From Linnemannia hyalina (lineage: Eukaryota > Mortierellomycota > Mortierellomycetes > Mortierellales > Mortierellaceae): DNA of 64,000 nucleotides. The notes below the pieces were generated by a model. That model did no database searches, was not told the origin of the DNA, and was given only the letters and a program-made list of their open reading frames with translations. The stretch lies in the NCBI GenBank assembly GCA_019671135.1, contig JAHRHY010000025.1:1-64000 (forward strand). Direction: 5' to 3'. The translations under genes and the position numbers were made by a program. This document shows positions 2,176-29,537 of this stretch, in pieces. Position 1 is the first letter of the stretch; each line of letters begins with the position of its first letter.

Positions 2176-2670
2176 GCGGCCCCTTCATGTGCAGAGGATA
2201 TAAAAAGGCATATAAAAAATATCCAAAGTCCAAGGAACGGAGTGTTGACTTCCATAACTGGCATATCTCTTCATAGTGGGCAACAGAACACAGAATAAAA
2301 TAGCAATAGACAGCACAAGAATTTTTAAAATGTAATCTCTCCCCTGTATTTCACGACAAAGATACAGTTGGGAATACAAGTGCTTTAGATGATCACATAC
2401 AAGAACTACTCTGTCGAATCTTGCAGTGAGGGTTACAGGTTAATAGTAGATGGACATATTCAAGAGTTTGGTGTGCGAAAAATAAGAAGACTTTGTTGTT
2501 TGGAGAATAGGTTGGTGTTTAGTAGGATAGTTAAACAAAAAATGTTACAATGGTTGTCTTATATGCTTGGTATCATATATACATTCTCCTCTAATGGACG
2601 CGGTGGATATCGTCAAGATCTGCAGAGATGTAACAAACACCATATGATAATTTGGACTTGAAAGGCCTCC
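2176..2670 (+). repeat. 495 bp terminal unit, left copy of A1
   Basis: It appears identical to 7166-7660 by eye and shares private variants with that copy and the lone unit at 42429-42923. Its ends form an imperfect inverted repeat (GCGGCC... and GGAGGCC...). Two TATA-like stretches (gatataaaaa, catataaaaa) lie within 50 bp of the left end. Two small divergent frames, 64 codons (minus, 2185-2379) and 90 codons (plus, 2389-2661), are open in the units of this window. The copies are too similar for that to prove coding. Confidence 0.9.
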
Positions 2671-2793
2671 TAGGTGGAAGTGTCGAAGACATGTTACATT
2701 TTTAAAAAGTTCATGCTATATATACAACCACAAATGCCAACTGTTGACAATTGGATAGTTTTTAAAATATCTACTCTTCATCTGTCTCAACAA

Positions 2794-5040
2794 CTACCAA
2801 AACTTTACATCTGGAGAGTACAATTTAGGCAATTCCTCGATCGTGAACCCCATGGCAATTAACTTCTGCTTTTGTTTGTTGTTGGTAAATTTGTCTCGAC
2901 TATAGTTACTGTCACCGTTTGCAGGTATCTTATACAGCAGTCCAACAATAATGTCCTCTTCGTACCTCTTGAGCAGATGACATCCGTCGAAAAGGTAGTT
3001 GGTTGCATATTCATGCTTCTTGTCAAACGAACATGTTGTCCATTTAATTTCGTCTTTATCTATGACGATTATACCCGAGGAGCTTTTATCTTTAGGGTAC
3101 CTTTTCCACATAACATCCTCAGCATCTTTATCATCCTCAGCATCTTTATCATCTTCAGCATCGTTATCACCCTCAGCATCTTTGTCATCCTCAGCATCGT
3201 TATCACCCTCAGCATCTTTGTCATCTTCAGCATCTTTATCACCCACCGCATCTTTGTCATCCTCAGCATCTTTATCGCCCTCAGCATCTTTATCATCCTC
3301 ACATGTGCTCTCATCTTTCTGTGGCAAGCTTTGCTTATGCTCATGCGGTTTAAATCCCATAGCAAACAACTTCTCTTTTTCCTTCTGGCTAAGAGAATGA
3401 CACTCTACATTCTCTGCAGCAATATGGTCATCAGTCATCAAGCCGATTACAGTGTCTTTTTTGCGCATCTTGAGAATGTGCATTCCATTTACAAGTACAT
3501 TCTCGGAATATTCCAAGTACTTGTTAAGTTTTTTCCATATCACCTTGGATTTATCTGTTGGTCCTTCTACTGGTACTTCTTCTTCTACTTCGATCTCCTC
3601 GTTGAAAAGCGTCTTTCTCTCTTCATCAGACAATGGTTGAAGTTTCATCTTGCTAAGCATGGAGCGTTCCAAGATATCCAACTCTGGAACATCACCGACA
3701 CCGCGCAGAGCATCAAGCGTAAACAGGCCAACGTATGTATTCTTTCCAGATAGCCTGACAATGTACTTGCCATTCATCGTAAACTTAGTTGCATACTCAA
3801 GCATGTCGTTATTAGGATGAATCATCCATCCTCTGTCCTTCGCACGTGCTATGTCTTTCTCTGATCTAATGTTATGCACCGTTGTGGCCAGTGCAAATGT
3901 ATGTTCATCTTTTCCATCCTTAGAAACGTCTACATTAGAAGATGGCTCTGCATTTTTGGGCATCTCTGAATGCCTTTTCTTTCGAGAAGTCTTCTTCTCA
4001 TCATCCTTAGATGACTTTTTATGAGATAGTTTTTCATCAGGGTTATCCTTAGAGGTATCATCTCCAGATTCTACATCAGGTCTGTTATTGGACTTGCCAT
4101 CATCAGAGTCTTTATCATCAGGGGAATCATCGTCAGAGCCAGCATCATCAGACGTATCACCATCATCTGTATCATCGTCAGAATTCTCATCAGCAGAAGA
4201 CTCTTCTATTTTTTCTACATCAGCAGGAGTTGCCTCTTGGAGTCCCATCTTTTGTAATATACGTACCTCTTTGTCAGATAATTTCGGTACAGGAAGATTT
4301 TTCCCCATGAGCTCAGGTGGACACAATACAATGTAGAGGTCCTTTTCCTTCAGCTTAATAATGTACTTGCCATTTACAGTATAGTTTTTTGCATACAGGA
4401 AAGCTGGATTAGTTGCATAACGCATCCATATGCCTGTATTAGCGAGTGGTACATTTTTCTTGGACGTTATGTCAACTACCTTTGGACTCAACGGAAAGGA
4501 GACGGCAATTATATCTTCTTCATCATCATCGGACGGCTCCTCATCCGATGACTCCTGCTTGTTTCTCTTTCGCTTCTTTGGTTCTTCATCCTCGGAAGTC
4601 ATATCATCATCTGAAGGGACAAACTCAGGAGTATGTGTCTTCTTGGTTATCTTGGAAGACTTGGTACGCTTGTTGGCAGGTGCCTTATTGTTACTGCTTT
4701 TCATATGACCTTTATGCTGCTCTCGATGACGTCCACAGTATGTTTCACCAAGTTTGGCTACACTACCACAATTAGCGCCCTTAATGGTTGTGCCTTGACA
4801 CTTGCGCGCAGGATCGTGGACATAACAATGCATGCCTTCATCATCAACTTCCTTCATGCATTTGCGCTTGGACTTGGTGCACTTTGCACCACAAAAGTAG
4901 TATCTCTCTACTCCCTCATCCTCATCAAGCGCCTTAAAGATCTTATTTGCATCTTTCTTGGTAAACTCCACTCCCTTCTTAGAAGAAAATGTCTCGAAGG
5001 CCTTGGTGATGAGCTCGATTGTAAGCTGAACGTACTGCAT
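2794..5040 (-). CDS. A-type cargo protein, 748 aa: Cys/His modules plus four copies of a ~65 aa repeat
   Basis: I do not recognise this protein. Residues about 48-115 hold two cysteine/histidine clusters (C-x3-C-x5-C...C-x2-H, then C...C...YC-x2-H), which look like small zinc-binding modules. Four diverged copies of one domain follow, near residues 205-265, 408-475, 515-580 and 670-740. The shared pattern is an aromatic/charged start, EYA-x-N, VNGKYI-x-KL, KDT-x-VGL, then a short helix ending in MG. The copies are separated by acidic Ser/Asp-rich linkers and, between the third and fourth, a run of KDAEDD/KDAEGD hexapeptides. Acidic linkers and many Lys suggest a nuclear, DNA- or chromatin-associated protein. 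It is conserved as 740 aa in A2, so it is probably a functional part of the element. No transposase motif is seen in it. Confidence 0.8.
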   Translation of the reverse strand: MQYVQLTIELITKAFETFSSKKGVEFTKKDANKIFKALDEDEGVERYYFCGAKCTKSKRKCMKEVDDEGMHCYVHDPARKCQGTTIKGANCGSVAKLGETYCGRHREQHKGHMKSSNNKAPANKRTKSSKITKKTHTPEFVPSDDDMTSEDEEPKKRKRNKQESSDEEPSDDDEEDIIAVSFPLSPKVVDITSKKNVPLANTGIWMRYATNPAFLYAKNYTVNGKYIIKLKEKDLYIVLCPPELMGKNLPVPKLSDKEVRILQKMGLQEATPADVEKIEESSADENSDDDTDDGDTSDDAGSDDDSPDDKDSDDGKSNNRPDVESGDDTSKDNPDEKLSHKKSSKDDEKKTSRKKRHSEMPKNAEPSSNVDVSKDGKDEHTFALATTVHNIRSEKDIARAKDRGWMIHPNNDMLEYATKFTMNGKYIVRLSGKNTYVGLFTLDALRGVGDVPELDILERSMLSKMKLQPLSDEERKTLFNEEIEVEEEVPVEGPTDKSKVIWKKLNKYLEYSENVLVNGMHILKMRKKDTVIGLMTDDHIAAENVECHSLSQKEKEKLFAMGFKPHEHKQSLPQKDESTCEDDKDAEGDKDAEDDKDAVGDKDAEDDKDAEGDNDAEDDKDAEGDNDAEDDKDAEDDKDAEDVMWKRYPKDKSSSGIIVIDKDEIKWTTCSFDKKHEYATNYLFDGCHLLKRYEEDIIVGLLYKIPANGDSNYSRDKFTNNKQKQKLIAMGFTIEELPKLYSPDVKFW
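3112..3302 (-). repeat. 18 bp in-frame minisatellite inside the 748 aa gene
   Basis: About ten tandem 18 bp units encode KDAEDD, KDAEGD and similar hexapeptides. Unit variants occur in the same order in the A2 copy (24990-25180), so the array has not changed length since the two elements separated. Long open frames on the other two readings here are by-products of the repeat. Confidence 0.85.
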
Positions 5041-5714
5041 GTTTTTGGATATGAACGATATAGATTGTACTTGTGATATGGTGGGTGTGAATGACTTTTC
5101 AGTTTATGTGTGGTAGATTGCAGCTGCTTAGTACACTGATATAAAGAATTGCAATAAAAGATGGTTGTATAGGTATGGATGGTTGTATAGATATGGATAA
5201 TGGTTGGTTGGTTACTAGATAAGATAAAGATTAAGCAAGAGGGAAGTGGAGTCCTTTATTTATACTAATTCATGGGACACTGCCACACTGGATATTAATA
5301 GCGCTTGCTTATTAACACTGCTTGGCGCTTAGTAACAAAAGAGTTTTAAAAAGGCATCTAAGTGGTTAATAACGTAGTGTTCCTCGTATGACGTAGATCT
5401 TGCTTATTAAGACTGCTTGGCGTTAAAGACGGGGTTTAAAAATGGTTAAGAATGTAGTATTCTTTTATGACGTAGGTTTGTACATGTGTTTATGTATTCT
5501 TTTATGGCGTAGGTTTGTACATGTGTTTATCCTCTTTGTTAAATAAAAAGGAATGTTGTAGAATAGCATAGAATAGCATCCGATCTACTACAATAATACC
5601 ATGACTTTTAATAATAGATACCGGTGCATATTAGCGTCTAGGCAGTTAATACCGTATCTCAACGCTGACTAAATAGGCTATGTATGTCTATTCTTTTAAA
5701 AACCTGCAATAAGT
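5041..5714. promoter_or_regulatory. A1 intergenic region between cargo gene and transposase gene
   Basis: No gene is seen. It is AT-rich with internal short repeats: gcttattaa-x-actgcttggcg occurs twice (about 5308 and 5401), and a segment with tatgacgtaggtttgtacatgtgtttat occurs twice (about 5475 and 5503). CRE-like tgacgta motifs recur. The palindromic TTTTAAAAA motif lies at 5344-5352 and at 5694-5702, the latter 12 bases past the transposase stop. It should hold the promoter of the cargo gene and the 3' end of the transposase gene. Confidence 0.5.
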
Positions 5715-7004
5715 CTACAAATTACCATTAACATCCATTTGTCGCTTCGTACCTCTAAGCTCAATGGAAAGACCGGGTTGCATTATTACTGCTTGATCCA
5801 TTGGTGTGTCCTCATCAACATTAACATCAACATCACCATGAAGATTAATACCAAGAAATTTGTTCTGGAGTTGTGCCATTGTATTTCCATCCTCCACTAG
5901 CGCACCAACATCAACATATCCCATTGGTTGCTCAACGTCGTTCTCTGTCGTCGGATACTCGAATCCTTCGCGAAGCCAAGCTGTATGAATTGGTTCTGCA
6001 GAAATCTTCAACAAAGCAACCATCTTTTTCATGTTTAAGAGTAACAAAGATAACTTCAACTGCAAATTATATGTTTGTTTCTTATCCACCAACACAGGAG
6101 TACGGTTGTTGTGTTTCTCAAATGTGGAACCAAGGTCTGCAAACAGAGATTCCATCTGCGAGCGGAAACTACCAAAGGTGGTATTGTATAACGCTTCTTC
6201 CTGTGTAAGTTCCTTGTTCTTCTGTTTACGGTATGGATGAGCGAAATTTTGGAGTTTAAGAGTATCAGACTCATCTATAAGCCTCCTTAAGAACTGTGGA
6301 TACCCTCCATCGAGAGCAATGCAATCCATCTCATGCACTCTCTTGTCCAACTTCATCGTTAGCAGCATTGTTCCATCAGCATTGTTCTTGCAAGATGCAG
6401 ATTTGGAGACAAATAAAGCCATGCCATTACAATCCATTGCTACCTGTGTGCGTAATCCAGACTTTTTCAGCTTGTAAGAGTACATATCAGCACTACTCTC
6501 ACCTTTGTATGTTGCTCTTGTATCATGACCATCAAGATGCAATGTAACATGCTTAAATAATGGAGGATTCTTTTCCTTTGCAGACAAAAGGCGTATTTTA
6601 ATTGTGGAGAACATTGTTGCAATACAGTTGGTGATGTACTTGTTGTGCAAAGTATATTCTTTCTTATAAAACACAGAGTGCATTGCATGAAAACTACTTT
6701 TTGGCATGTGTGGTTCCATTGCTTCCATAGACAGTCCTTTGACAAGATGATAGAGCATTAAAAGACCTTTCTCCACTTCTTTGTATGGACCAGGATACTT
6801 AACCTTTGGCCAGATGTCAACAAGAAAGAAGTACACTGGAATAGGACCAAGGCGTCGATTTAGGGTTTCTTTTATTTCTGGCATATACCCAATTTCCTTG
6901 CTTACAGTACGATGATTATTACGTGGTGTAATTGTTGGCCATCCAGCGTTGAGGAAAGTCCAATGGTCATCAAGCAGTTGTTGGAAGTGTTTTGTTAGAT
7001 CCAT
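5715..7004 (-). CDS. A1 DDE transposase, IS5/PIF-Harbinger-like, 429 aa
   Basis: It is probably the enzyme that cuts and joins the element ends. The DDE core is visible. The first Asp is in HLDGHDTRA, followed by YSYKLKKSGLRTQV. The second Asp is in IALDGGYPQF. The Glu is in FRSQMESLFADLGSTF, after an HPYRK segment, which is the arrangement of DDE_Tnp_4/Harbinger enzymes. Its N-terminal 120 residues are probably DNA-binding but show no clear HTH. I start at the ATG at 7004 (MDLTKHF) because the A2 homologue starts at the equivalent point. The 30 upstream in-frame codons look like leader, and the TTTTTTAAAAA motif (7053-7063) lies there. The same family occurs in A2 (418 aa) and, more distantly, in the C-type element (426 aa). 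Confidence 0.85.
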   Translation of the reverse strand: MDLTKHFQQLLDDHWTFLNAGWPTITPRNNHRTVSKEIGYMPEIKETLNRRLGPIPVYFFLVDIWPKVKYPGPYKEVEKGLLMLYHLVKGLSMEAMEPHMPKSSFHAMHSVFYKKEYTLHNKYITNCIATMFSTIKIRLLSAKEKNPPLFKHVTLHLDGHDTRATYKGESSADMYSYKLKKSGLRTQVAMDCNGMALFVSKSASCKNNADGTMLLTMKLDKRVHEMDCIALDGGYPQFLRRLIDESDTLKLQNFAHPYRKQKNKELTQEEALYNTTFGSFRSQMESLFADLGSTFEKHNNRTPVLVDKKQTYNLQLKLSLLLLNMKKMVALLKISAEPIHTAWLREGFEYPTTENDVEQPMGYVDVGALVEDGNTMAQLQNKFLGINLHGDVDVNVDEDTPMDQAVIMQPGLSIELRGTKRQMDVNGNL

Positions 7005-7165
7005 AATAATATTTATGTATTGGATTGTCATGACGTTAACCAACAATAACAATTTTTTAAAAAGGCTTATACTTAACTGTATACACAACAGCATGTAGGA
7101 TGGTATCTATCATACAGCAAGCACATAGTTGAGAATACAAATATATTTTTATATTTTATTCGGTA

Positions 7166-7660
7166 GCGGCCCCTTCATGTGCAGAGGATATAAAAAGGCA
7201 TATAAAAAATATCCAAAGTCCAAGGAACGGAGTGTTGACTTCCATAACTGGCATATCTCTTCATAGTGGGCAACAGAACACAGAATAAAATAGCAATAGA
7301 CAGCACAAGAATTTTTAAAATGTAATCTCTCCCCTGTATTTCACGACAAAGATACAGTTGGGAATACAAGTGCTTTAGATGATCACATACAAGAACTACT
7401 CTGTCGAATCTTGCAGTGAGGGTTACAGGTTAATAGTAGATGGACATATTCAAGAGTTTGGTGTGCGAAAAATAAGAAGACTTTGTTGTTTGGAGAATAG
7501 GTTGGTGTTTAGTAGGATAGTTAAACAAAAAATGTTACAATGGTTGTCTTATATGCTTGGTATCATATATACATTCTCCTCTAATGGACGCGGTGGATAT
7601 CGTCAAGATCTGCAGAGATGTAACAAACACCATATGATAATTTGGACTTGAAAGGCCTCC
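7166..7660 (+). repeat. 495 bp terminal unit, right copy of A1
   Basis: It is a direct repeat of 2176-2670 with no difference found by eye. It is preceded by a ~110 bp A-type tail segment (about 7050-7165) that also precedes the unit at 12445 and the right unit of A2. It ends at GGCCTCC, followed by the CTG duplication and Ty3-2 sequence. Confidence 0.9.
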
Positions 7661-7663
7661 CTG

Positions 7664-12321: not shown

Positions 12322-12940
12322 TCAATAACAATTTTTTAAAAAGGCTTATACTTAACTGCATACACAACAGCATGTAGGATGGTATCTATCATATAGCAAG
12401 CACATAGTTGAGAATACAAATATATTTTTATATTTTTTTCGGTAGCGGCCCCTTCATGTGCAGAGGATATAAAAAGGCATATAAAAAATATCCAAAGCCC
12501 AAGGAACGGAGTGTTTACTTCCATAACTGACATATCTCTTCATAGTGGGCAACAGAACACAGAATAAAATAGCAATAGACAGCACATGTTTTTTTAAAAT
12601 GTAATCTCTCCCCTGTATTTCGCCCCAAAGATACAGTTGAGAGTACAAGTGCTTTAGATGATGACATACAAGAACTACTCTGGCGAATCTTGCAGTGAGG
12701 GTTACAGGTTAATAGTAGATGGACATATTCAAGAGTGTGGTGTGCGAAAAATAAGAAGACTTTGTTGTTTGGAGAATAGGTTGGTGTTTAGTAGGATAGT
12801 TAAACAAAAAATGTTACAATGGTTGTCTTATATGCTTGGTATCATATATACATTCTCATCCCATAGTCGCTATGGATATTGTCGAGATCTACAGAGATGT
12901 AACAAACACCATATGATAACTTGGACCTGAAAGGCCTCCT
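12322..12940 (+). mobile_element. A3: right-end remnant of a third A-type element
   Basis: 12322-12444 matches the ~110-120 bp A-type tail (compare 7040-7165 and 28910-29042). 12445-12940 is a complete terminal unit carrying the same variants as the unit at 19670 (a T7 run, the SHSRYGYCRDL reading). The left unit, both genes and the left flank are gone. The right flank begins TAA and then C-type sequence (D), so A3 was probably inserted in D, with TAA as the expected but unpaired duplication. Confidence 0.8.
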
Positions 12941-13727
12941 AAGCATATATTCACCAGCGTCTTACTCGGTAAGTAATCCATCTGCACGTATTTTGTCACG
13001 TAGGAGTTGATAAGATGCCTCTAATAACTTTTTTATGCCGTTAGTGCCAAATATAGTGGCATCTTGTGGAAAGAGGTTACGATGATGATCTAAAAATTCA
13101 TCCAAATAGACAAACATACACAATTCCAGATTCTTCTCATAAATAAAATCTGCAACAACTTCCTGCTGGCGTGCTTTGGTTAAACGTGTAGGCCTGGGCA
13201 TAATATATTTGCGGCGATAAGACGTCTAAATGCTCATCCCCCTATATACCTATTTGTCAATTACTCCCTTGAATAGATACAACTTGACATCTATATTAGA
13301 TATTGTTGTGTATGCCCTCAAACACAAACATTGAGAGAAATATTCCCGGGAAAAAACGTGGTATATCAAGTATCAAGAGATCACCATTCCGCCTAATATG
13401 CCAAAAAGGATTTGCAACAGGTGTGACCAAAAGAAGCCTTCATATGATTTCTACGATGATTCCAGAAATACATGTAAGGAATGCAAGATAAAGTCTTCCA
13501 AGGAGAGCTATCAGGCAAAAAAGAATGGTGGAAAGCATGTGAAATCTGGGAGATGTAAGAAAGATGAGGATGTGCAACAATCCGATGATGATTTACAGTA
13601 TGAGAATAAGAAGTTAAAGAAACGTGTCAGAAAATTAGAGAAAGAAATGGATAAGATGAACCAAATTATTTCCCAGCAGAAGAGGGAGATTTATATAATA
13701 AATGCCTTGATCAAAGGATTTGCCAGT
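12941..13727 (-). mobile_element. D: inverted fragment of a second C-type element
   Basis: Read on the minus strand, this is nearly identical to 14274-15050 of the complete C-type element, with the same two genes in the same order. It is cut on one side by the A3 unit and on the other by the left end of the complete C element. Both genes in it are broken. Confidence 0.85.
12962..13201 (-). pseudogene. Broken copy of the C-type small basic protein
   Basis: Seventy-nine codons are identical or nearly identical to residues 1-79 of the protein at 14812-15084. An AAA to TAA change then stops it early (LLTE-stop in place of LLTEKDAGEY), and the A3 unit follows 22 bases later. The upstream in-frame ATG of the intact copy is followed here by a stop, which supports the internal MPRPTRL methionine as the true start. 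Confidence 0.8.
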
Positions 13728-13751
13728 GGGAAATGTCTTGGGTCGAAATAG
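13398..13751 (+). pseudogene. Truncated copy of the C-type zinc-ribbon/coiled-coil protein
   Basis: The first 110 residues match the protein at 14223-14615. The frame then crosses into the left terminal repeat of the complete C element and gains six foreign residues (KCLGSK) before a stop. The last 20 native residues, an acidic tail, are lost. Confidence 0.85.
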
Positions 13752-14046
13752 TTAAATATGTTATGGAATACCAATGGAAGTTGCAAGAATTTGTACAGAC
13801 GATTATGGAAGGAGTTTTTAAAAAGACAACAGATATATCTATAAAGAATACATATACAAAAGCAAAAGAATCCAAATGGACATAGTTATCTAGCAGTATT
13901 ACAAGAGCAAAACGTAAGGAAAGAGTATCAACATAAACATATTTTACATATCGGTAATCGAGGAATAGAATTGGGGGAGATCGCTTTTTTTTGGGCGAGG
14001 GAGTACACCATTTTTCTCGTCTTTTGTTAAGCTATGCCCACCATTT
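13728..14046 (+). repeat. Left 319 bp terminal inverted repeat of the C-type element
   Basis: It pairs with 18235-18553. It contains one TTTTTAAAAA palindrome and ends at a TTTTAAAA motif (about 14043-14050). Bases 14047-14222 between the repeat and the first gene hold nothing recognised. Confidence 0.9.
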
Positions 14047-14222
14047 TAAAACACCTACGTTCATATAACATATATAGCATTTATACGTGTGTCCCCGGTG
14101 AATCTCATGCATATACATCATGATGATAATGGTACCAGCTTGGTTGACAGTACATGAATTTCCTGGGAATAATTCCCATAATACTACTTATGGAAGGTAT
14201 ATATATTGCACATTTTAAAAGT

Positions 14223-14615
14223 TTATTCCGATAGCTCAACAACATTGGCTGTATCTAATTCTTCCTCTTGATTTACCATGAGACCACTGGCAAATCCTTT
14301 GATCAAGGCATTTATTATATAAATCTCCCTCTTCTGCTGGGAAATAATTTGGTTCATCTTATCCATTTCTTTCTCTAATTTTCTGACACGTTTCTTTAAC
14401 TTCTTATTCTCATACTGTAAATCATCATCGGATTGTTGCACATCCTCATCTTTCTTACATCTCCCAGATTTCACATGCTTTCCACCATTCTTTTTTGCCT
14501 GATAGCTCTCCTTGGAAGACTTTATCTTGCATTCCTTACATGTATTTCTGGAATCATCGTAGAAATCATATGAAGGCTTCTTTTGGTCACATCTGTTGCA
14601 AATCCTTTTTGGCAT
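14223..14615 (-). CDS. C-type zinc-ribbon/coiled-coil protein, 130 aa
   Basis: Residues 5-30 form a CxxC...CxxC zinc ribbon (ICNRCDQKK...TCKECK), a form found in many small proteins of mobile elements and large viruses. A basic linker follows, then a strong coiled coil at about residues 66-100 (ENKKLKKRVRKLEKEMDKM). The tail is acidic. This suggests a dimeric nucleic-acid-binding accessory protein. It is divergently transcribed from the next gene, sharing the ~200 bp between 14615 and 14812. A TTTTAAAA motif lies directly past the stop (14213-14220). A broken copy exists in fragment D. The function is unknown; Harbinger elements usually carry a second, Myb-like DNA-binding protein, and this one could fill that role without being a Myb protein. 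Confidence 0.75.
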   Translation of the reverse strand: MPKRICNRCDQKKPSYDFYDDSRNTCKECKIKSSKESYQAKKNGGKHVKSGRCKKDEDVQQSDDDLQYENKKLKKRVRKLEKEMDKMNQIISQQKREIYIINALIKGFASGLMVNQEEELDTANVVELSE

Positions 14616-14811
14616 ATTAGGTGGAATGGTGATCTCTTGATACTTGATATACCACGTTTTTTCCCGGGAATATTTCTCTCAATGTTTGTGTTTGAGGGCA
14701 TACACAACAATATCTAATATAGATGTCAAGTTGTATCTATTCAAGGGAGTAATTGACAAATAAGTATATAGCGGGATGAGCATCTGGACGTCTTATCGCC
14801 GCAAATATATC

Positions 14812-15084
14812 ATGCCCAGGCCTACACGTTTAACCAAAGCACGCCAGCAGGAAGTTGTTGCAGATTTTATTTATGAGAAGAATCTGGAATTGTGTATGTT
14901 TGTCTATTTGGATGAATTTTTAGATCATCATCGTAACCTCTTTCCACAAGATGCCACTATATTTGGCACTAACGGCATAAAAAAGTTATTAGAGGCATCT
15001 TATCAACTCCTACGTGACAAAATACGTGCAGATGGATTACTTACCGAGAAAGACGCTGGTGAATATATGCTTAGAAAAAAATGA
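14812..15084 (+). CDS. C-type small basic protein, 90 aa, unknown
   Basis: I do not recognise it. The N-terminus is basic (MPRPTRLTKARQQEV), followed by predicted helices with LELCMFVYLDEFLDHH and IKKLLEASYQLLRDKIRADG. It could be a small helical DNA-binding or dimerisation protein. An in-frame ATG 12 codons upstream exists (14776), but that region is broken by a stop in the copy in fragment D, so I favour the internal start. The stop is followed by TTTTTAAAA (15102-15110), then by the next gene at 15130. Confidence 0.65.
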   Translation: MPRPTRLTKARQQEVVADFIYEKNLELCMFVYLDEFLDHHRNLFPQDATIFGTNGIKKLLEASYQLLRDKIRADGLLTEKDAGEYMLRKK

Positions 15085-15129
15085 CGACCTAAATTATAGA
15101 CTTTTTAAAACCTAAGTATACCTTTTATT

Positions 15130-16833
15130 ATGTCGCCAACAAAAGAATCTCTGATAAACAAAGCCATCAACGAAATTTCCCATTTGCTGTCAAATGTGGG
15201 TAATCTACAGTCAGCACCATTTGGCAGTGTGGAGAGAAAAGGATTCACCAAATTCTCCAAACTCTTTTGCGATTCCATCATCTTTTGGGGTATATATAAC
15301 TTTGCTGACGATACCACTAAAGGTACAGCAATTGGAAAGTACATTGCTGAACTGCGCGATGCATTTAACCACACCGATTTAATTGTGGAATCTGTAAAGT
15401 TGGTCGATGCTAGGCAGGTTAAAATGGATGATAACTATTTTTCTCCGCGCATGGTCAAACGCCATAGAAAGTTGTTTGTTGGAAAAGAATACCAACAGGG
15501 ATTTATTGCCATCAAGGTTTCTTTAGATTTTTCCCGTGCAAAGATTGTTGTGCCAATTTTGGCGAACATGTTGTCTAGCTTGAACGAGAGCGGCATTGCT
15601 TTACATGACATAGACTTTGCCTATGATTGTACGCGTATTACCACACGACTGCACGTGGAGAGATTGCTAAAACAAACGAAAACTACAAAAATTGTCGATG
15701 ATGTGGGAAGAGTAGGACATCATTGTATTTCATGGAGAGGTCGAAAAGGGGATACAAAGAATATCCGATATAAGGTGTATAACAAATTTGTCCAGATTTT
15801 GGAAAGTGCCGAGGTGCGAAAGAGCCTTGGTTCACGTTTGGAGGATTTGGTGGAGAAAGAAACAGCATTTGGACGACGAGTTAAAAAATATAAAAAGCAT
15901 GGTTATAGTCGTATCGAGCTGACGTTTGAAGGTTCATCTTTGAGATCTCTTCAGTCATATCAAGACGAAATGGACAAGACAAAGAATCTCTTGAAGAAAT
16001 GTAAAACATTTAAATGTTCCTTTGAGATGCAGTGGGAGGAACGTGCAAAATGCATTACCTCGATGGTGGCTGTACATTTTCCACATGAGAAACTGTTTGC
16101 TTATTGTCACTGGTGGAATTCGGTAACCTCTAAGAAGTATGGATATATGTGGCAAAACTTTAAGAACCCCGAGCTTATTACACTTTTGCTGGCTAACTAT
16201 TCCTTTAACGATAGACCTATATATTTTGTGGAAGGACATGTAGAAGAGGTAAATGGGAAAGATGAAGTTATTTTGGGCGAAATAAGGACATTTAAGCGCG
16301 AGCCTGGATGTACTGCCATCACGCTAGTTGCTGGCTCGCAAAAAGGAATGTTTCCTTCGAGGGATGCATCTTCTAACGTCATTCGTAAATTTAGCAAAGT
16401 TGGAATTGTGGAAGTTGACAACATCTCTATTGCCTGGCCAAAGCGTGTTCATAACAGGTATAGTGCCCCACTTGCAGATATCTTCGAATATGATGAAGAT
16501 ACAGTAGACACAAATGTGTTACATCTGAAAACTATTCATGTTTCGATGTATACTGCAGCCGACCGAATTCTAACGCCCGATGAAGAGTATACCATTGTGG
16601 CGGCCGGTCTCAAAGAATTTCGTTCTGAACATCGTTGGCATTTTATTACAGCATGTGGCATAAAGGTGCGCGCAGGAAAATCGTTGGCAAAGATTTGGAG
16701 ACCATGGCGTGTGGAGCATCTTCAAGGTCTACAGAGAATTGGTAGTGTGCAAGGTGTACCGTTGATGACATTTCGTGCAGTAAAAAAGGTTCGTATTCAT
16801 GGCGAGGACGATATGAAGTGCGAGCGCGTTTGA
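15130..16833 (+). CDS. C-type 567 aa protein, possibly a replication-initiator-like protein
   Basis: This is an intact frame with no family I can name with confidence. Residues about 150-265 contain DIDFAYDCT, IRYKVYNK, EVR...GSRLEDLV and GYSRIELTF. This order (aspartate strand, K-x-Y-x-K, Arg, then R-x-E) resembles replication initiators of the Rep_trans/phage CRI type, in which Tyr and Lys sit near the nicking site. The match is a pattern seen by eye, not an alignment. The C-terminal 300 residues look like mixed alpha/beta without a helicase Walker motif. The gene converges with the transposase gene (36 bp gap), and TTTTTAAAAA sits in that gap (16838-16847). Its size and intactness in a compact element suggest a real role in transposition or copying. 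Confidence 0.7.
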   Translation: MSPTKESLINKAINEISHLLSNVGNLQSAPFGSVERKGFTKFSKLFCDSIIFWGIYNFADDTTKGTAIGKYIAELRDAFNHTDLIVESVKLVDARQVKMDDNYFSPRMVKRHRKLFVGKEYQQGFIAIKVSLDFSRAKIVVPILANMLSSLNESGIALHDIDFAYDCTRITTRLHVERLLKQTKTTKIVDDVGRVGHHCISWRGRKGDTKNIRYKVYNKFVQILESAEVRKSLGSRLEDLVEKETAFGRRVKKYKKHGYSRIELTFEGSSLRSLQSYQDEMDKTKNLLKKCKTFKCSFEMQWEERAKCITSMVAVHFPHEKLFAYCHWWNSVTSKKYGYMWQNFKNPELITLLLANYSFNDRPIYFVEGHVEEVNGKDEVILGEIRTFKREPGCTAITLVAGSQKGMFPSRDASSNVIRKFSKVGIVEVDNISIAWPKRVHNRYSAPLADIFEYDEDTVDTNVLHLKTIHVSMYTAADRILTPDEEYTIVAAGLKEFRSEHRWHFITACGIKVRAGKSLAKIWRPWRVEHLQGLQRIGSVQGVPLMTFRAVKKVRIHGEDDMKCERV

Positions 16834-16868
16834 GAGGTTTTTAAAAACTTTGGAAAGACTTTTGTTAA

Positions 16869-18149
16869 TTATAGACTGGTATTATCATCTTCGTGGTTTG
16901 ACATTTCCTCGTCATCATCCTTATTTGACGTTTGTTCATCATCATCATCTGAAGCAACATCTATTCCTACAAATTTCTCTTGCATTCTTTGTAACTCAAG
17001 ACCATTTTCCAGTTTGTTTTGTACTGTAACGGTTTGTGTTAACTCTGGAACAAGTTGCCTTTCTCGTGGATAATCTACTCCTTCTTCCATCCATCCACGA
17101 TGATGTGGCAGCTCTTCGATGTCGACTGCTTTGACAAAGTTGCGAACATTTAGCAAGAGAAGACAAAGGCGGAGTGTAAGATTAAACTCCTTTTTAGATC
17201 CAACTCGAACAATCTCCTTGTTATTAAACTTGGCGAATGTTTTCATGAGATCACCAAAGACAGCCTCTGACGTAGATCGAAATCCACCAAACATAGCATT
17301 AAAGTTGGATTCCTCTTCGTGGAGTTGCTGTAGTCGTTTCTTACGAATGGGAAAACAGAAGTTACGCTCGTCCAACTTTTCTTTTTCCACAATATCGCCA
17401 ATGTATTGTGTATATCCTCCATCGAGAGCAATACAGTCCATGTTGTTGATCTTCTTACCAATGCCCATCTCTTGTAACATTTTCCCATCGTTGTTATCAC
17501 GACATGACGCTGATTTGGATACAAAGAGAACCATTCCATTGGCATCGATGGCCACTTGCGTTCTCAAACCCGATTTCTTTAACTTATAAGAATACATTGC
17601 TGCTTTATCTTCCCCATATGTTGCTCGAGAGTCATGACCATCCAAGTAGAGAGTTACATGCTTGAACATTGGGGGATTTTTCCAATTGGCTGTTCGAATA
17701 CGAATTTCCAGCGAAGAAAACATGGATGCAAAACAGCGTGTAATCTCCTTCTCAAACAATGCACGTTCCACCTTGACGAATGTACTGTATATCAAATGGA
17801 ATGTGGACTTTGGCATATACTGTGCCATGGAATCCATAGTCTCTCCAGCGACGAAAAAGTACAAGAATGCAATTCCTTTCTCAAGTGCGTTATATGGACC
17901 AGGGAAATAGTGTTTACTCCAGATGGTAGATAGAAAGAAAAACACTGGTATGGCTCCAAGTCTCTTCATCAACACCTTTTTCATATCCTGTATTCTTGCA
18001 ATTGGTTTCAACTCTGAACGATGAAATGTCTTGACCTTTGGGCACATTGGCCACGGTTCATAAAGAAATCCCCATTCGTTCTCCAACAGATTATCAAGCA
18101 GCCGTGCAAGTTTCTTTGGCGTAGGGTTTACGATGGTATCAGTCTCCAT
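16869..18149 (-). CDS. C-type DDE transposase, IS5/PIF-Harbinger-like, 426 aa
   Basis: It is homologous along its length to the A1/A2 transposases. Shared blocks include GAIPVFFFL, YFPGPYNALEKG, PPMFKHVTLYLDGHD (first Asp), YSYKLKKSGLRTQVA, FVSKSASC, MDCIALDGGYTQY (second Asp) and GGFRSTSEAVFGDLMKTF (Glu). The tail is very acidic (DDDDEQ...DDDEE). I start at METDTIV (18149), about 12 codons inside the longest frame, by analogy with the starts of the A-type enzymes. The enzyme should act on the 319 bp inverted ends. That two related transposases serve elements with unlike ends and cargo is the basis for grouping A- and C-type together. Confidence 0.85.
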   Translation of the reverse strand: METDTIVNPTPKKLARLLDNLLENEWGFLYEPWPMCPKVKTFHRSELKPIARIQDMKKVLMKRLGAIPVFFFLSTIWSKHYFPGPYNALEKGIAFLYFFVAGETMDSMAQYMPKSTFHLIYSTFVKVERALFEKEITRCFASMFSSLEIRIRTANWKNPPMFKHVTLYLDGHDSRATYGEDKAAMYSYKLKKSGLRTQVAIDANGMVLFVSKSASCRDNNDGKMLQEMGIGKKINNMDCIALDGGYTQYIGDIVEKEKLDERNFCFPIRKKRLQQLHEEESNFNAMFGGFRSTSEAVFGDLMKTFAKFNNKEIVRVGSKKEFNLTLRLCLLLLNVRNFVKAVDIEELPHHRGWMEEGVDYPRERQLVPELTQTVTVQNKLENGLELQRMQEKFVGIDVASDDDDEQTSNKDDDEEMSNHEDDNTSL

Positions 18150-18234
18150 AATGTCGTTTTCTGCAAAAATAGGGATTATACACACGTAATTATGTCAATT
18201 ATTCCCTAGAATTCCCCAGATATGTCATATTAAG

Positions 18235-18553
18235 AAATGGTGGGCATAGCTTAACAAAAGACGAGAAAAATGGTGTACTCCCTCGCCCAAAAAAAAGCGA
18301 TCTCCCCCAATTCTATTCCTCGATTACCGATATGTAAAATATGTTTATGTTGATACTCTTTCCTTACGTTTTGCTCTTGTAATACTGCTAGATAACTATG
18401 TCCATTTGGATTCTTTTGCTTTTGTATATGTATTCTTTATAGATATATCTGTTGTCTTTTTAAAAACTCCTTCCATAATCGTCTGTACAAATTCTTGCAA
18501 CGTCCATTGGTATTCCATAACATATTTAACTATTTCGACCCAAGACATTTCCC
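18235..18553 (-). repeat. Right 319 bp terminal inverted repeat of the C-type element
   Basis: It is the inverse of 13728-14046 and differs at one base (cgttgc versus agttgc) in the part I compared closely. Crypton coding sequence begins directly after it. Confidence 0.9.
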
Positions 18554-19669
18554 TCTGTAATAAGCAGAAGGAGCTAGCAAGCTCCCAGCTTGTGGCCGAA
18601 GCTCGCAAGTCCTTGCAAGCCCAGTCGACGCGGGACCAGTATGATCGGTACCAGGAGAAGTTCATGGTATGGCAAATTGTAAAATGTACCCCCATTTTTG
18701 CACAAGCATAGATAAACTATGGCCCCCGACTCGACGCACTAACTAACTCAATCACTCCATCCATTGGTATAGGAATGGTGCGACGTTTCTGGATATAAGG
18801 ATGATTACAACGTCACGAAAGGCAAAGTAACCCGTTACTTTGCTTGCCTGACCTGCGAGACGGAAGATCCTCAAAACGGTATGAATATGAAGAATGGAAC
18901 TAATGTGAGCGGTCATACGATACGACGACGACGACGAAACGCTATGGTGGTGTTTGAAATTATAAGAACTAACGAAAATATAAATGCTATAGGTATTATA
19001 CGGATCAAACCATTGCCAAGAGACAGGAAGGGCAACAACAGCAAGGACAAGTCCGGCGAACGGCGGGCAAATATGGATGACCCGTGTTCTGATGATGATG
19101 TCGATGGAGGCGATGTGGAGGACAAAAGCGATGACGACTGCGAGGGGGACGCCAGTCGAGACGTTGACATCCACAACAGCAACAACGATAACAGTGAAGA
19201 GCGGTGGTACTCGACGGCAACCATTCTCTTGCACCTCGCTGCCATTGGCGACCTCTATAAGCATCAGTGTGAAGACAGGAACAATTTAGCGATGGATTAT
19301 GGCACAGTTCCGGCCCCGAAGACGTACCTTCAACCTCTGATCGACGTTTACCGCGTGAGGATGTCCGCCAGGAAGAGGTCGACAGATACCGACTTTGGCT
19401 CTATCGACTTCACCCAGAACCCAACTTCGATTGTTCGGCAGCTAATGAAGCGATTCTGGATGCGCAATGTGGAGGGCGCAGCCAGCTTGAGAAAGCGCCG
19501 CTTGAAAGGGTTACGCGACCGTGCGGATGTAAGTCTTTGCTTTTTTATGATGTTCCGCAGCGAGGTCACACGCCAGATTCGACTCCCGGATCTTTTCGCC
19601 CACGACGTCGAGCCCAACCGCAACAAAAATACGAACGATGCCAGCTGCAGAGAAGGCCAATTCGTGCTT
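18554..19669 (+). pseudogene. Crypton-type tyrosine recombinase, 5' part (exons 1-3, N-terminus missing)
   Basis: The coding frame starts abruptly at the C-element border (LCNKQKELASSQL). Inferred exons are 18554-18666, 18773-18878 and 18993-19669, with GT-AG introns between them that keep the frame. The protein has WCDVSGY and, after an acidic Asp-rich insert, MFRSEVTRQIRLPDLF. This resembles the Ndc10-like DNA-binding/recombinase region of fungal Cryptons, where an arginine in 'LRG-x-x-x-R' type sequence is catalytic. The gene is interrupted at 19669 by a lone 495 bp unit with a CTT duplication and resumes in frame at 20168. Confidence 0.7.
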
Positions 19670-20164
19670 GGAGGCCTTTCAGGTCCAAGTTATCATATGG
19701 TGTTTGTTACATCTCTGTAGATCTCGACAATATCCATAGCGACTATGGGATGAGAATGTATATATGATACCAAGCATATAAGACAACCATTGTAACATTT
19801 TTTGTTCAACTATCCTACTAAACACCAACCTATTCTCCAAACAACAAAGTCTTCTTATTTTTCGCACACCACACTCTTGAATATGTCCATCTACTATTAA
19901 CCTGTAACCCTCACTGCAAGATTCGCCAGAGTAGTTCTTGTATGTCATCATCTAAAGCACTTGTACTCTCAACTGTATCTTTGGGGCGAAATACAGGGGA
20001 GAGATTACATTTTAAAAAAACATGTGCTGTCTATTGCTATTTTATTCTGTGTTCTGTTGCCCACTATGAAGAGATATGTCAGTTATGGAAGTAAACACTC
20101 CGTTCCTTGGGCTTTGGATATTTTTTATATGCCTTTTTATATCCTCTGCACATGAAGGGGCCGC
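19670..20164 (-). repeat. Lone 495 bp unit in the Crypton gene (CTT duplication)
   Basis: This is a complete unit in inverse orientation with no A-type genes nearby. It is flanked by CTT at 19667-19669 and 20165-20167. Subtracting the unit and one CTT restores the Crypton frame. Its variants match the A3 unit (12445-12940). Confidence 0.9.
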
Positions 20165-20167
20165 CTT

Positions 20168-20761
20168 GGAGTTGTGCTGATGATGAGGCAAGGCAAGACG
20201 AACAAGGACGGCAAGATTCAGTATGGAGTAGCAGTTCGGAACAAAGAAGTAGATGTGTGTCCAGTTGGCGCGCTAGCCTTTTATTTGCTTGAGCTTTGGT
20301 CGGTAAGTGGCGTGCATGTGGTAAATGTCGGCGGCCGACGCGTCGTGTCACTCATATTTCAACACTCATTTAATAATGCGTTCTTCCCCCCACCTCTTCC
20401 TTTTTTTTGCTGTACTAAGAGCAAAAACAAAAAGGCGCCTGATCTCACCAACCCTAAATGGACCGACTACCATCTGTTAGCTGGAAACAAACCAATGGAT
20501 GTACCGATGACTTACAACTCCCAGTTCCAGGCGCAGGTGGAGGCTTTTCATGAGAGCGGGATATTGGACAAGGGCACAGTGACTCACCTTGGGCGCAAGC
20601 ACGGCTCCAGATTCGCGCATATGTGTGGATCTACGGTAGAGGCTATCGCTAAGCACGGGAACTGGGCATCGAACCGTCTCTCAACTCACTATCTCGAGGG
20701 TGTAGAGCCTTCAGTGGCCCTTCGATTGGCTGGATTTGACCGCGACCGTCTAGAGCGCTTT
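20168..20761 (+). pseudogene. Crypton tyrosine recombinase, middle part (catalytic region)
   Basis: Exons are 20168-20302 and 20420-20761 with a GTAAGT...TAAG intron. GKTNKDGKIQYGVAVR and CPVGALAFYL are hallmark Crypton/Ndc10-like segments. THLGRKHGSRFAH holds the H-x-x-R pair, and HGNWASNRLSTHYLEGV holds the likely nucleophile tyrosine. These are the tyrosine-recombinase residues that cut and join DNA. The frame stops at 20761, where a second lone unit begins. The continuation is now on the minus strand at 24050 because of an inversion. Confidence 0.8.
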
Positions 20762-21256
20762 GGAGGCCTTTCAAGTCCAAATTATCATATGGTGTTTGTT
20801 ACATCTCTGCAGATCTTGACGATATCCACCGCGTCCATTAGAGGAGAGTGTATGTATGATACCAAGCATATAAGACAACCATTGTAACATTTTTTGTTTA
20901 ACTATCCTACTAAACACCAACCTATTCTCCAAACAACAAAGTCTTCTTATTTTTCGCACACCACACTCTTGAATATGTCCATCTACTATTAACCTGTAAC
21001 CCTCACTGCAAGATTCGCCAGAGTAGTTCTTGTATGTCATCATCTAAAGCACTTGTACTCTCAACTGTATCTTTGGGGCGAAATACAGGGGAGAGATTAC
21101 ATTTTAAAAATTCTTGTGCTGTCTATTGCTATTTTATTCTGTGTTCTGTTGCCCACTATGAAGAGATATGTCAGTTATGGAAGTAAACACTCCGTTCCTT
21201 GGGCTTTGGATATTTTTTATATGCCTTTTTATATCCTCTGCACATGAAGGGGCCGC
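20762..21256 (-). repeat. 495 bp unit at the left inversion breakpoint
   Basis: It is a complete unit in inverse orientation. Its left flank TTT (20759-20761) pairs with AAA at 24051-24053, and its right flank ATA (21257-21259) pairs with TAT at 29538-29540. It therefore carries one flank from a Crypton insertion and one from the A2 insertion in Ty3-3. Its variants match both A2 units. Confidence 0.9.
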
Positions 21257-22660: not shown

Positions 22661-24050
22661 TTATTCTCTTCTCTTTGGGTACTTTCTCGAGGGAGCTTTG
22701 GGAAGAGCCTTGTAGTATTTATCAATTGAACCAACAGTATCGATTTGCCCTCTTACGAAGGCAAGTGCATTGTTTACGGCGGACTTGTCAACCTGCAAGC
22801 CAGCTGGGATAGAGCGCAGAACCGAATGTACAATGTCCTTCTTCCACTTGTAGAGCTGTGCATCTTTGCCTCGCCACGCTGAACCGAACCACCTATTAAG
22901 CTCTGCGATGGAGGGGGACCCATCGACGCCGTGGTAAAACCACTCTTGCCACAGTTGGTCGAGCGTATTCGGTCGTGGGATCAGCTTGCACTCGGGCATT
23001 AGGGGCATATGGTGTTGGGTCTCTCCTCTCGCCCTCTTCTCGTCGGCGACTAAGGCGGCTACTTGTCGCATTCTGTCCTCGACATTGTCGCTGGGGTTGA
23101 AAGCGGCCAGAGCTGCGCGGCGGTGCGCATCCCTTGAAAGAACTGCAGTGGAAGAAGTCAGAGGTCTTGATTCTTGCTGGCCAGCGTCCGGCTCTGGAAG
23201 CTGAAGAAGAGCGATGGCGGTAGCCATAGTGGTACTCTGGCTTGCTACACTGCCGTTGACGTCGTCACTGACCTTCACCTCATCGTCCTCGCTAATCGCC
23301 ACCACGGCTTCCACCGTTGACTTGAGAGCTTGCATCAACTGAGATCGAACGGCATCCTTGTTCAAACATTGTCGCTTGTTGCCTGCCAGTTTGTCATTGT
23401 TGCCAATGCACCGCTTCAAGTCCTTCAGCTCGGATGCTGTCCTATCATTCTGAGCTTGTAAAGTAGCTGCTAGAACATTCATACCGGCGTGCAAACTCTG
23501 AAGTCCGGCTTGCTGGCTTTGCTGCAGGCTCCGGATTGCAGCATCTTGGACACCGAGCCTCGCGCCGACCCTGTCAAACTCCAGTTGGATGATGGGTGTG
23601 GCAGATGCGAGGGAATCCGTGAGAGGAGAGGGATTTCTCATGCTCTCGAGTAGGGTTTGCTGGAAATCTTGAAACGCAGGTGTTTTGAAGACAGGGTGAT
23701 CGAAAACAGGGTGCGCGGCGGCAGCACCACCCCCCGGACAGGATGACAGCTGCATCCTGAAGGATAACCTTTCGCAGGTGGGCGAGAAGGCTAAGATGGC
23801 GCTTTCTTGAAATGACCTCATTCGACAGAACGGTCTGCATATCCTTGTCCGTATACACCTGCTTGACTTCCTTGCACTCGCCCCGTCGCAGCTTCTCACG
23901 CAACTCCTCGCGTCCGTGGAAAACGTCGCAGTCACGCATAATGTCGTCATTCGTGAGCCTCCAGAACGTGTCGGAGCAAGCATCCTCGATGAAAGGGAAC
24001 AGCTGCCTTTGGAGCTCAATGCTGGGGATCACAGTGTTCCGAGCCAACCA
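22661..24050 (-). pseudogene. Crypton, C-terminal part with GCR1_C domain (inverted)
   Basis: Reading from 24050 downward, the frame continues that of 20761 (LERF then WLARNTVIPSIELQRQLFPF), as in Ndc10/Crypton proteins. A frame change is needed within a run of G at about 23736, probably a 1-base indel. After it come a Gln-rich helical linker and then the GCR1_C domain (about 22690-22970 in genome order): TLDQLWQEWFYHGVDGSPSIAELN and WRGKDAQLYKWKKDIVH. GCR1_C is a DNA-binding domain common at the end of such recombinases. The first part of the longest frame (before about 23745) is out-of-frame shadow. Confidence 0.8.
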
Positions 24051-24053
24051 AAA

Positions 24054-24548
24054 GCGGCCCCTTCATGTGCAGAGGATATAAAAAGGCATATAAAAAATAT
24101 CCAAAGCCCAAGGAACGGAGTGTTTACTTCCATAACTGACATATCTCTTCATAGTGGGCAACAGAACACAGAATAAAATAGCAATAGACAGCACAAGAAT
24201 TTTTAAAATGTAATCTCTCCCCTGTATTTCGCCCCAAAGATACAGTTGAGAGTACAAGTGCTTTAGATGATGACATACAAGAACTACTCTGGCGAATCTT
24301 GCAGTGAGGGTTACAGGTTAATAGTAGATGGACATATTCAAGAGTGTGGTGTGCGAAAAATAAGAAGACTTTGTTGTTTGGAGAATAGGTTGGTGTTTAG
24401 TAGGATAGTTAAACAAAAAATGTTACAATGGTTGTCTTATATGCTTGGTATCATACATACACTCTCCTCTAATGGACGCGGTGGATATCGTCAAGATCTG
24501 CAGAGATGTAACAAACACCATATGATAATTTGGACTTGAAAGGCCTCC
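24054..24548 (+). repeat. 495 bp terminal unit, left copy of A2 (right inversion breakpoint)
   Basis: It is identical by eye to 29043-29537. Its left flank AAA belongs to the Crypton insertion, not to Ty3-3, showing that crossover took place within this unit and the inverse unit at 20762-21256. Confidence 0.9.
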
Positions 24549-24671
24549 TAGGTGGAAGTGTCGAAGACATGTTACATTTTTAAAAAGTTCATGCTATATA
24601 TACAACCACAAATGCCAACTGTTGACAATTGGATAGTTTTTAAAATATCTACTCTTCATCTGTCTCAACAA

Positions 24672-26894: not shown

Positions 26895-27614
26895 GTTTTT
26901 GGATATGAACGATATAGATTGTACTTGTGGTATGGTGGGTGTGAATGACTTTTCAGTTTATGTGTGGTAGATTGCAGCTGCTTAGTACACTGATATAAAG
27001 AATTGCAATAAAAGATGGTTGTATAGGTATGGATGGTTGTATAGATATGGATAATGGTTGGTTGGTTACTAGATAAGATAAAGATTAAGCAAGAGGGAAG
27101 TGGAGTCCTTTATTTATACTAATTCATGGGACACTGCCACATTGGATATTAATAGCGCTTGCTTATTAACACTGCTTGGCGCTTAGTAACAAAAGAGTTT
27201 TAAAAAGGCATCTAAGTGGTTAATAACGTAGTGTTCCTCGTATGACGTAGATCTTGCTTATTAAGACTGCTTGGCGTTAAAGACGGGGTTTAAAAATGGT
27301 TAAGAATGTAGTATTCTTTTATGACATAGGTTTGTACATGTGTTTATGTATTCTTTTATGACGTAGGTTTGTACATGTGTTTATCCTCTTTGTTAAATAA
27401 AAAGGAATGTTGTAGAATAGCATAGAATAGCATCCGATCTACTACAATAATACCATGACTTTTAATAATAGATACCGGTGCATATTAGCGTCTAGGCAGT
27501 TAATACCGTATCTCAACGCTGACTAAATAGGCTATGTATGTCTATTCTTTTAAAAACCTGCAATAAGTCTACAAATTACCATTAACATCCATTTGTCGCT
27601 TCGTACTACGTACC

Positions 27615-28871: not shown

Positions 28872-29042
28872 AATAATATTTATGTATTGGATTGTCATGA
28901 CGTTGACCAACAATAACAATTTTTTAAAAATGCTCATACTTTACTGCATACACAAGAGCATGTAGGATGGTATCTATCAACTGTATCTCACAGCAAGCAC
29001 ATAGTTGAGAATACAAATATACGTTTATATTTTTTTTCGGTA

Positions 29043-29537
29043 GCGGCCCCTTCATGTGCAGAGGATATAAAAAGGCATATAAAAAATATCCAAAGCCCAA
29101 GGAACGGAGTGTTTACTTCCATAACTGACATATCTCTTCATAGTGGGCAACAGAACACAGAATAAAATAGCAATAGACAGCACAAGAATTTTTAAAATGT
29201 AATCTCTCCCCTGTATTTCGCCCCAAAGATACAGTTGAGAGTACAAGTGCTTTAGATGATGACATACAAGAACTACTCTGGCGAATCTTGCAGTGAGGGT
29301 TACAGGTTAATAGTAGATGGACATATTCAAGAGTGTGGTGTGCGAAAAATAAGAAGACTTTGTTGTTTGGAGAATAGGTTGGTGTTTAGTAGGATAGTTA
29401 AACAAAAAATGTTACAATGGTTGTCTTATATGCTTGGTATCATACATACACTCTCCTCTAATGGACGCGGTGGATATCGTCAAGATCTGCAGAGATGTAA
29501 CAAACACCATATGATAATTTGGACTTGAAAGGCCTCC
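29043..29537 (+). repeat. 495 bp terminal unit, right copy of A2
   Basis: It is a direct repeat of 24054-24548. It is preceded by the A-type tail and followed by TAT and Ty3-3 gag. Confidence 0.9.

Follow-up and report, generated by a model that had tools for sequence, protein, structure and literature searches.

The locus considered here raises the question of how an element that encodes a DDE transposase comes to end in two long, direct and identical repeats. It lies in a 64,000-nucleotide stretch of the Linnemannia hyalina genome (assembly GCA_019671135.1, contig JAHRHY010000025.1, positions 1 to 64,000), referred to below as the window. The elements in question, which we call family A, constitute a composite-like DDE transposon of the PF13359 (Harbinger/IS5) type, built as unit-INT-unit, where INT denotes the internal region.

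Architecture of family A

Two complete elements, A1 (2176-7660) and A2 (24054-29537), are present in the window, and their boundaries and 495-bp direct repeats are as the first-pass annotation had placed them, with an INT of approximately 4.5 kb between the repeats. In A1, the left unit (2176-2670, + strand; it starts GCGGCCCC and ends GGCCTCC) is followed by the INT (2671-7165, beginning TAGGTG and ending CGGTA) and by a right unit (7166-7660, + strand) that is identical to the left one; the whole is flanked by a perfect CTG target-site duplication (TSD; 2173-2175 and 7661-7663). Sequence comparison delimited the left unit of A2 (24054-24548, + strand), its INT (24549-29042) and its right unit (29043-29537, + strand), which is likewise identical to the left. 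The annotated pattern of units that agree within an element and differ between elements was thus recovered, with no difference inside either element and 2.6% divergence between the units of A1 and those of A2. While the long ends are direct rather than inverted, the A1 unit has an imperfect terminal inverted repeat of its own, with 13 of 20 positions matching, a level that random offsets reach at a rate of 0.0002.

The window also contains incomplete copies. A truncated element (12323-12939, + strand) retains the final 122 bp of INT and the right unit. Solo units, all on the - strand, were found at 19670-20164, within a Crypton-like tyrosine recombinase gene and with a CTT duplication (19667-19669 and 20165-20167); at 42429-42923, where unit match and flanks revealed a TAT duplication; and at 20762-21256. 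The last of these is identical to the A2 units and is flanked by TAT on the left and AAA on the right, reciprocal to A2, which has AAA on the left and TAT on the right. An inversion between A2 and this solo unit restores both duplications; such a pair could also have arisen by an intramolecular replicative inversion.

The A1 transposase (459 aa; open reading frame at 5715-7094, - strand) matched PF13359 (DDE_Tnp_4) in Pfam with an E value of 1.6e-7, confirming the DDE transposase predicted at first pass; its A2 counterpart lies at 27615-28937 (- strand). The candidate catalytic triad, D188/D262/E315, showed no variation across 50 aligned sequences, and the C/DxxH motif that Kolobok transposases have between the second D and the E was absent between D262 and E315 when the translation was read by eye. 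A second gene, ORF2 (748 aa at 2794-5040, - strand, in A1; 24672-26894, - strand, in A2), predicts in A1 an acidic protein with a Cys-rich N-terminal part and contains there an 18-bp tandem repeat (3114-3301). The A1 ORF2 matched no Pfam family over the cut-off, with no Myb/SANT-like domain recognised, and neither ORF2 nor the transposase of A1 had a His-Me finger nuclease match in Pfam. The named protein matches shown were mostly from Mortierella and relatives, and scans of viral contigs and genome contigs revealed no relatives of the family in other genomes.

These features bear on a reading in which family A spreads by reverse transcription, as a group of non-autonomous LTR retroelements with a captured transposase gene. 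Left and right ends that are equal at insertion, solo units, and the unit-sharing chains described below would also be compatible with such elements. However, Pfam matched neither of the two long INT open reading frames to a family of reverse transcriptases or retroviral integrases, and no primer-binding site was recognised beside the unit by eye, without tRNA comparison. Further, whereas LTR retrotransposons have TG..CA repeat ends and a 4-6 bp duplication, family A units end GCGG..CTCC and are associated with 3-bp duplications. We therefore consider the retroelement reading very improbable.

Copies in the genome

We surveyed one assembled genome (51.5 Mb, 50 contigs). Allowing three mismatches, 418 left and 439 right unit ends were found; allowing two, INT-end/unit junctions numbered 129 and unit/INT-start junctions 65, the latter count missing a 5.8-kb subtype because its INT starts differently. 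Within the listed left ends the family is strongly subtelomeric: 83 of 97 were less than 100 kb from a contig end, compared with 10.7 expected under a uniform distribution (the 97 being those of the first 100 listed left ends that fall on contigs of known size).

When the 65 start junctions were compared with the 100 end junctions listed (of 129), 45 pairs were found 3.5-5.2 kb apart on one strand. For copies with such junctions, this addresses the concern, raised at first pass, that most copies might lack one of the units. For comparison of both ends, 49 candidate pairs were reduced to 46 elements: candidates f17 and f26 had a broken left unit, and e16, which had appeared to be an element with unlike units, is really two insertions, one a solo unit flanked by a TAA duplication and the other represented by the left unit of another element. 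Because e18 and f22 share their flanks, they are a single insertion and were counted once in TSD statistics. Chains in which neighbouring elements share a unit exist, by coordinates, on C8 and C13, and e11 also belongs to a chain. INT-INT junctions, as expected of KolobokP-style unit excision, gave zero matches to a pattern that permitted no mismatches outside its gap, so that damaged junctions would escape it.

Target-site duplications

A perfect 3-bp duplication flanks 35 of the 46 elements (34 with e18/f22 counted once), where the chance of 3-bp agreement is 0.06 per element at this base composition. The duplicated targets (n = 34) are mostly A/T-rich: 32 have A or T as the second base, 20 begin with T, and 21 end with A. 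When a TWA preference was examined, TAA or TTA accounted for eight of the 34. Nested insertions gave the same duplication length, as the empty sites of e7 (inserted in a unit) and of e1 and f2 (inserted in INTs) have the three bases once. Solo units also carry duplications, in eight of 10 examined (window positions 19670 and 42429, the e16 solo, s1, s2, s3, s4 and s6, but not s5 or window position 20762). The 3-bp duplications of the first-pass annotation thus hold for A1 (CTG) and for 34 independent insertions, but not for A2 as it stands (AAA/TAT).

Matching of the two units within elements

A check proposed at first pass, on whether each left unit resembles the right unit of its own element, gave a clearly positive answer. 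Of the 46 elements, 30 have two identical units and 37 have units that differ at no more than three sites, while units of different elements differ at about 20 sites on average. The left-right differences of the 46 elements sum to 131, whereas 20,000 permutations gave 902 on average and never less than 579; the matching is far beyond chance. Among the 92 units there are 36 haplotypes, of which 16 are found as identical pairs. Six element-private states are present in both units of their element, which makes independent mutations unlikely as the cause. Changes at one end alone are common too: 16 private states, spread over 13 units, occur in a single unit only.

Assembly or polishing can confuse repeats that lie 5 kb from each other, which could make two ends look alike. 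Such an artefact is nevertheless hard to credit, given that the 92 units retain 36 distinct haplotypes and some elements still have unequal pairs; the unequal pair of e18 even recurs at f22, although the 43-kb contig of f22 could represent the e18 locus a second time.

The state of the TSD separates the elements further. Among the 34 independent insertions with an intact TSD, the units are identical in 26 and no more than three sites apart in 32, leaving only e18 and f27 with unmatched units. By comparison, of the eight TSD-broken elements outside chains, three have identical units, one has a one-site difference, and four are unmatched (Fisher p = 0.008 for intact versus broken at six or more differences, a cut chosen after the data were seen). 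The chain elements e11, e13 and f3 have 8, 0 and 12 left-right differences, respectively. This contrast is expected if insertion sets the identity of the two units and if later recombination chimaeras join ends of different origin. As for the matched elements with a broken TSD, flank deletion, inversion (as at A2), intramolecular transposition or conversion could each account for them.

These counts also bear on the KolobokP model b1, in which unit-INT-unit is rebuilt at the site of an existing solo unit when a circle carrying INT and a unit recombines with it. Its ingredients are available, as solo units with duplications and unit-sharing chains both exist. The model, however, predicts complementary hybrids (recipient/donor at one end and donor/recipient at the other), so that left would be unlike right wherever donor and recipient differ; instead, those 26 TSD-intact insertions have identical units, even though different elements differ at about 20 sites. 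We regard model b1 as improbable, and it is disfavoured as the main route.

In some elements the left-right differences are confined to tracts: columns 335-410 in e18/f22, within 41-294 in f27, and 143-147 in e15. Judged by their sequence, the tracts of e18 and f27 look as ectopic conversion would make them. No unequal left/right pair was found in two independent insertions among the 46 elements.

The split from the nearest relative alone gives a lower bound of 0.2-2.4 expected left-right differences per element, a small figure, suggesting that recent amplification accounts for part of the identity. The stronger argument is the switching of unit types in pairs together with the TSD contrast, not identity as such.

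Unit types switch in pairs

We compared unit haplogroups (single linkage, four or fewer differences) with a tree built from the 21 INTs retrieved in full, namely those of A1, A2 and 19 others. The haplogroup changes at least 10 times on the left and at least 10 times on the right, numbers that are approximate because many forks are unresolved within a clade of 12 near-identical INTs. Left and right nonetheless have the same haplogroup in 19 of 21 elements, with disagreement in e18 and in e11, which belongs to a chain. Within the clade of 12, three haplogroups are mixed, and left and right agree in 11 elements, relative to a permutation mean of 4.8 (p = 0.0005). Individual comparisons illustrate the same point: e3 and e15 differ at only two of 4494 INT sites but in 27 unit columns, with the units of e3 identical to each other, and A1 and e14 differ at seven of 4495 INT sites and in 26 unit columns. 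Replacement of an INT by recombination inside the units would, we argue, leave hybrid, unequal units. The simplest account is that an INT travels with one unit, which is doubled at insertion.

The main rival to doubling is gene conversion between the two ends. On this reading, whole elements move by ordinary cut-and-paste, frequent conversion between an element's own ends maintains their identity, and ectopic conversion moves unit types among elements. Ectopic exchange is plausible among more than 400 copies, ends 5 kb apart could also be homogenised, and the tracts in e18/f22, f27 and e15 resemble the products of conversion. On the other hand, each switch of type would need full-length conversion at both ends, at least 10 times on the tree, while half-converted elements are few (two of the 34 TSD-intact insertions) and a second independent insertion with the same unequal pair was never found. 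Further, elements with a broken TSD are the less homogenised ones, with four of eight unmatched as opposed to two of 34. Taken together, we consider conversion a rather unlikely explanation, if the most serious of the alternatives.

A proposed route for insertion

The first-pass annotation had left two possibilities for the matching ends: homogenisation by conversion or recombination, or a copying route through a form with a single unit. Both are still live, and the data lean to the single-unit form because of the TSD contrast, the paired switches, and the lack of any unequal pair shared by independent insertions. We postulate, with some confidence, that family A inserts by way of one unit plus INT, probably as a circle, and that the unit is doubled in the process, as in a bacterial IS cointegrate.

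The steps might be as follows. The 495-bp unit, which provides both outer ends of the element and has its own short imperfect inverted repeat, would be the part recognised by the transposase. Recombination between the two units of an element would leave a solo unit behind and free a circle containing INT and a single unit. The transposase would then attach the circle to a new target by both ends of its unit; replication of the unit, in a cointegrate-like manner, would place the circle between two copies of the unit and generate the 3-bp duplication. As a result of this doubling, left and right would be reset to equality at each insertion. Ectopic conversion or crossing-over at one end could later produce the few unmatched elements. 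Such elements count against doubling, namely e18, f27, four TSD-broken elements, and two of the three chain elements (e11 and f3).

As to the chemistry, the transposases of IS5 and PIF/Harbinger are related. IS903, a member of the IS5 family (PMC3281130), has transposase mutants that are shifted towards replicative transposition (PMC2723962), and would by analogy offer a precedent for the doubling step proposed for family A.

We advance a broader interpretation more tentatively: that family A is a eukaryotic DDE transposon that spreads by cointegrate-like, replicative insertion of a one-unit circle, and that its units may act as cassettes that are swapped while the element is circular and are then doubled. 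If the one-unit-circle reading is true, an enzyme of the cut-and-paste type gives rise to LTR-like elements whose ends are reset at every insertion. If doubling is true, replicative transposition by a eukaryotic Harbinger-type enzyme would be, as far as we know, a new route, and left/right identity could be used to date insertions of DNA transposons, as is done for LTR elements. The family is very active and frequent in subtelomeres, with more than 400 units in one fungus, making the question testable.

Comparison with known systems

A related PF13359 element in the window, B (13724-18557), provides a comparison. Like family A it resides in this genome and encodes a PF13359 transposase (16869-18149, - strand), 45-48% identical to that of family A; unlike family A, it has 323-bp inverted ends (13724-14046 and 18235-18557) and, as its partner, an open reading frame encoding a protein of 567 aa (15130-16833, + strand). 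B is also found in head-to-tail arrays. Its inverted ends raise the possibility that, in this transposase group, direct repeats are the derived layout, and the length of these inverted ends is at odds with the statement of the first-pass annotation that Harbingers have short inverted ends only.

Family A shares with PIF/Harbinger transposons a PF13359 DDE transposase, 3-bp A/T-rich duplications and two open reading frames. Classic members of that superfamily end in inverted repeats, whereas family A has long direct repeats and an ORF2 without a recognised Myb-like domain. In the open-licence literature we found no described Harbinger with long direct repeats, nor any description of family A in Mortierella. 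To our knowledge, the direct-repeat layout in DDE transposons is otherwise known from one unrelated animal transposon group only.

That group is KolobokP, the only instance of the same architecture among the matches listed from the open-licence literature; the layout is thus not without precedent on a DDE transposon, as had been implied at first pass. KolobokP elements, found in animals, have long terminal direct repeats of approximately 450 or 660 bp (Kojima and Bao 2022, PMC9587614). The likeness extends to the unit-INT-unit build, short inverted repeats within the units, a transposase in INT, solo units with duplications, and multimers that share units (PMC9587614). The differences lie in the proteins and the host: KolobokP belongs to the Kolobok superfamily of animals and has a His-Me finger nuclease, although some of its families are without one (PMC9587614), while family A is a PF13359 element of a fungus in which Pfam found no such nuclease. 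Because its transposase is PF13359, family A falls outside KolobokP despite the similar layout. The direct-repeat (composite) layout would then have arisen at least twice among eukaryotic DDE transposons, in different superfamilies, suggesting a stable life style rather than an accident. The authors of the KolobokP study consider a one-unit circle among the possibilities and describe the pathway as unknown (PMC9587614). The pairing of left and right units, the main evidence for family A, addresses the question that this leaves open, the upkeep of two matching ends; no such test appears in the sections of that paper considered here.

Bacterial composite transposons and the translocatable units of IS6/IS26 likewise have two direct copies of a unit around a cargo. 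In those systems the transposase gene is within the unit, whereas in family A, a eukaryotic element, it is in INT and the unit has no assigned gene. A further likeness lies in the route, as a one-unit circle and replicative doubling, proposed here for family A, have their counterparts in IS26 (as described in PMC9587614) and in the IS903 mutants (PMC2723962).

Rearrangements involving the A-family units

The solo unit at 20762-21256 (a single 495-bp unit lacking the internal region, minus strand) and the units of A2 (24054-29537), one of the PF13359 transposons with directly repeated ends, are identical but inverted relative to one another, and their flanks are reciprocal. We read this as an inversion between this solo unit and the units of A2, by either homologous exchange or replicative inversion. 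Solo units also interrupt a tyrosine recombinase gene (18560-20760) matching NDC10_II, which we read as Crypton-like; a GCR1_C open reading frame lies nearby (22661-23983). Elsewhere in the genome, four junctions between a unit and the start of the internal region were found on one strand, 8.34-8.36 kb apart (G000:C44:2819099-2844180), apparently reflecting a tandem 8.35-kb repeat that holds a piece of the A family.

Element B and transposase relatives

The related element B (13724-18557), which has 323-bp inverted ends, forms head-to-tail arrays at L092 (contig C16) and L090 (contig C2), in which a point near its right end is joined to an internal point. The period in L092 is approximately 4436 bp, and the right end in these arrays contains sub-repeats of approximately 401-413 bp. 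Genome-wide, 98 transposase matches were scored, counting the B and A families together.

The PF13359 transposase of B (426 aa) is accompanied by a 130-aa open reading frame with CxxC pairs (14223-14615), weakly matching the phage endonuclease family PHROG 2340 (E 0.00018), and by a conserved 567-aa partner, for which no Pfam family scored above the cut-off. The AlphaFold model of this partner is confident (pLDDT 93.5); the predicted fold had a rolling-circle initiator as its top solved-structure match, and a second look placed TBP-like folds above that initiator.

Among relatives of the transposase, 9 of 50 aligned sequences matched the chromodomain family PF00385, a domain that may steer insertion; the A1 (2176-7660) transposase did not match it.
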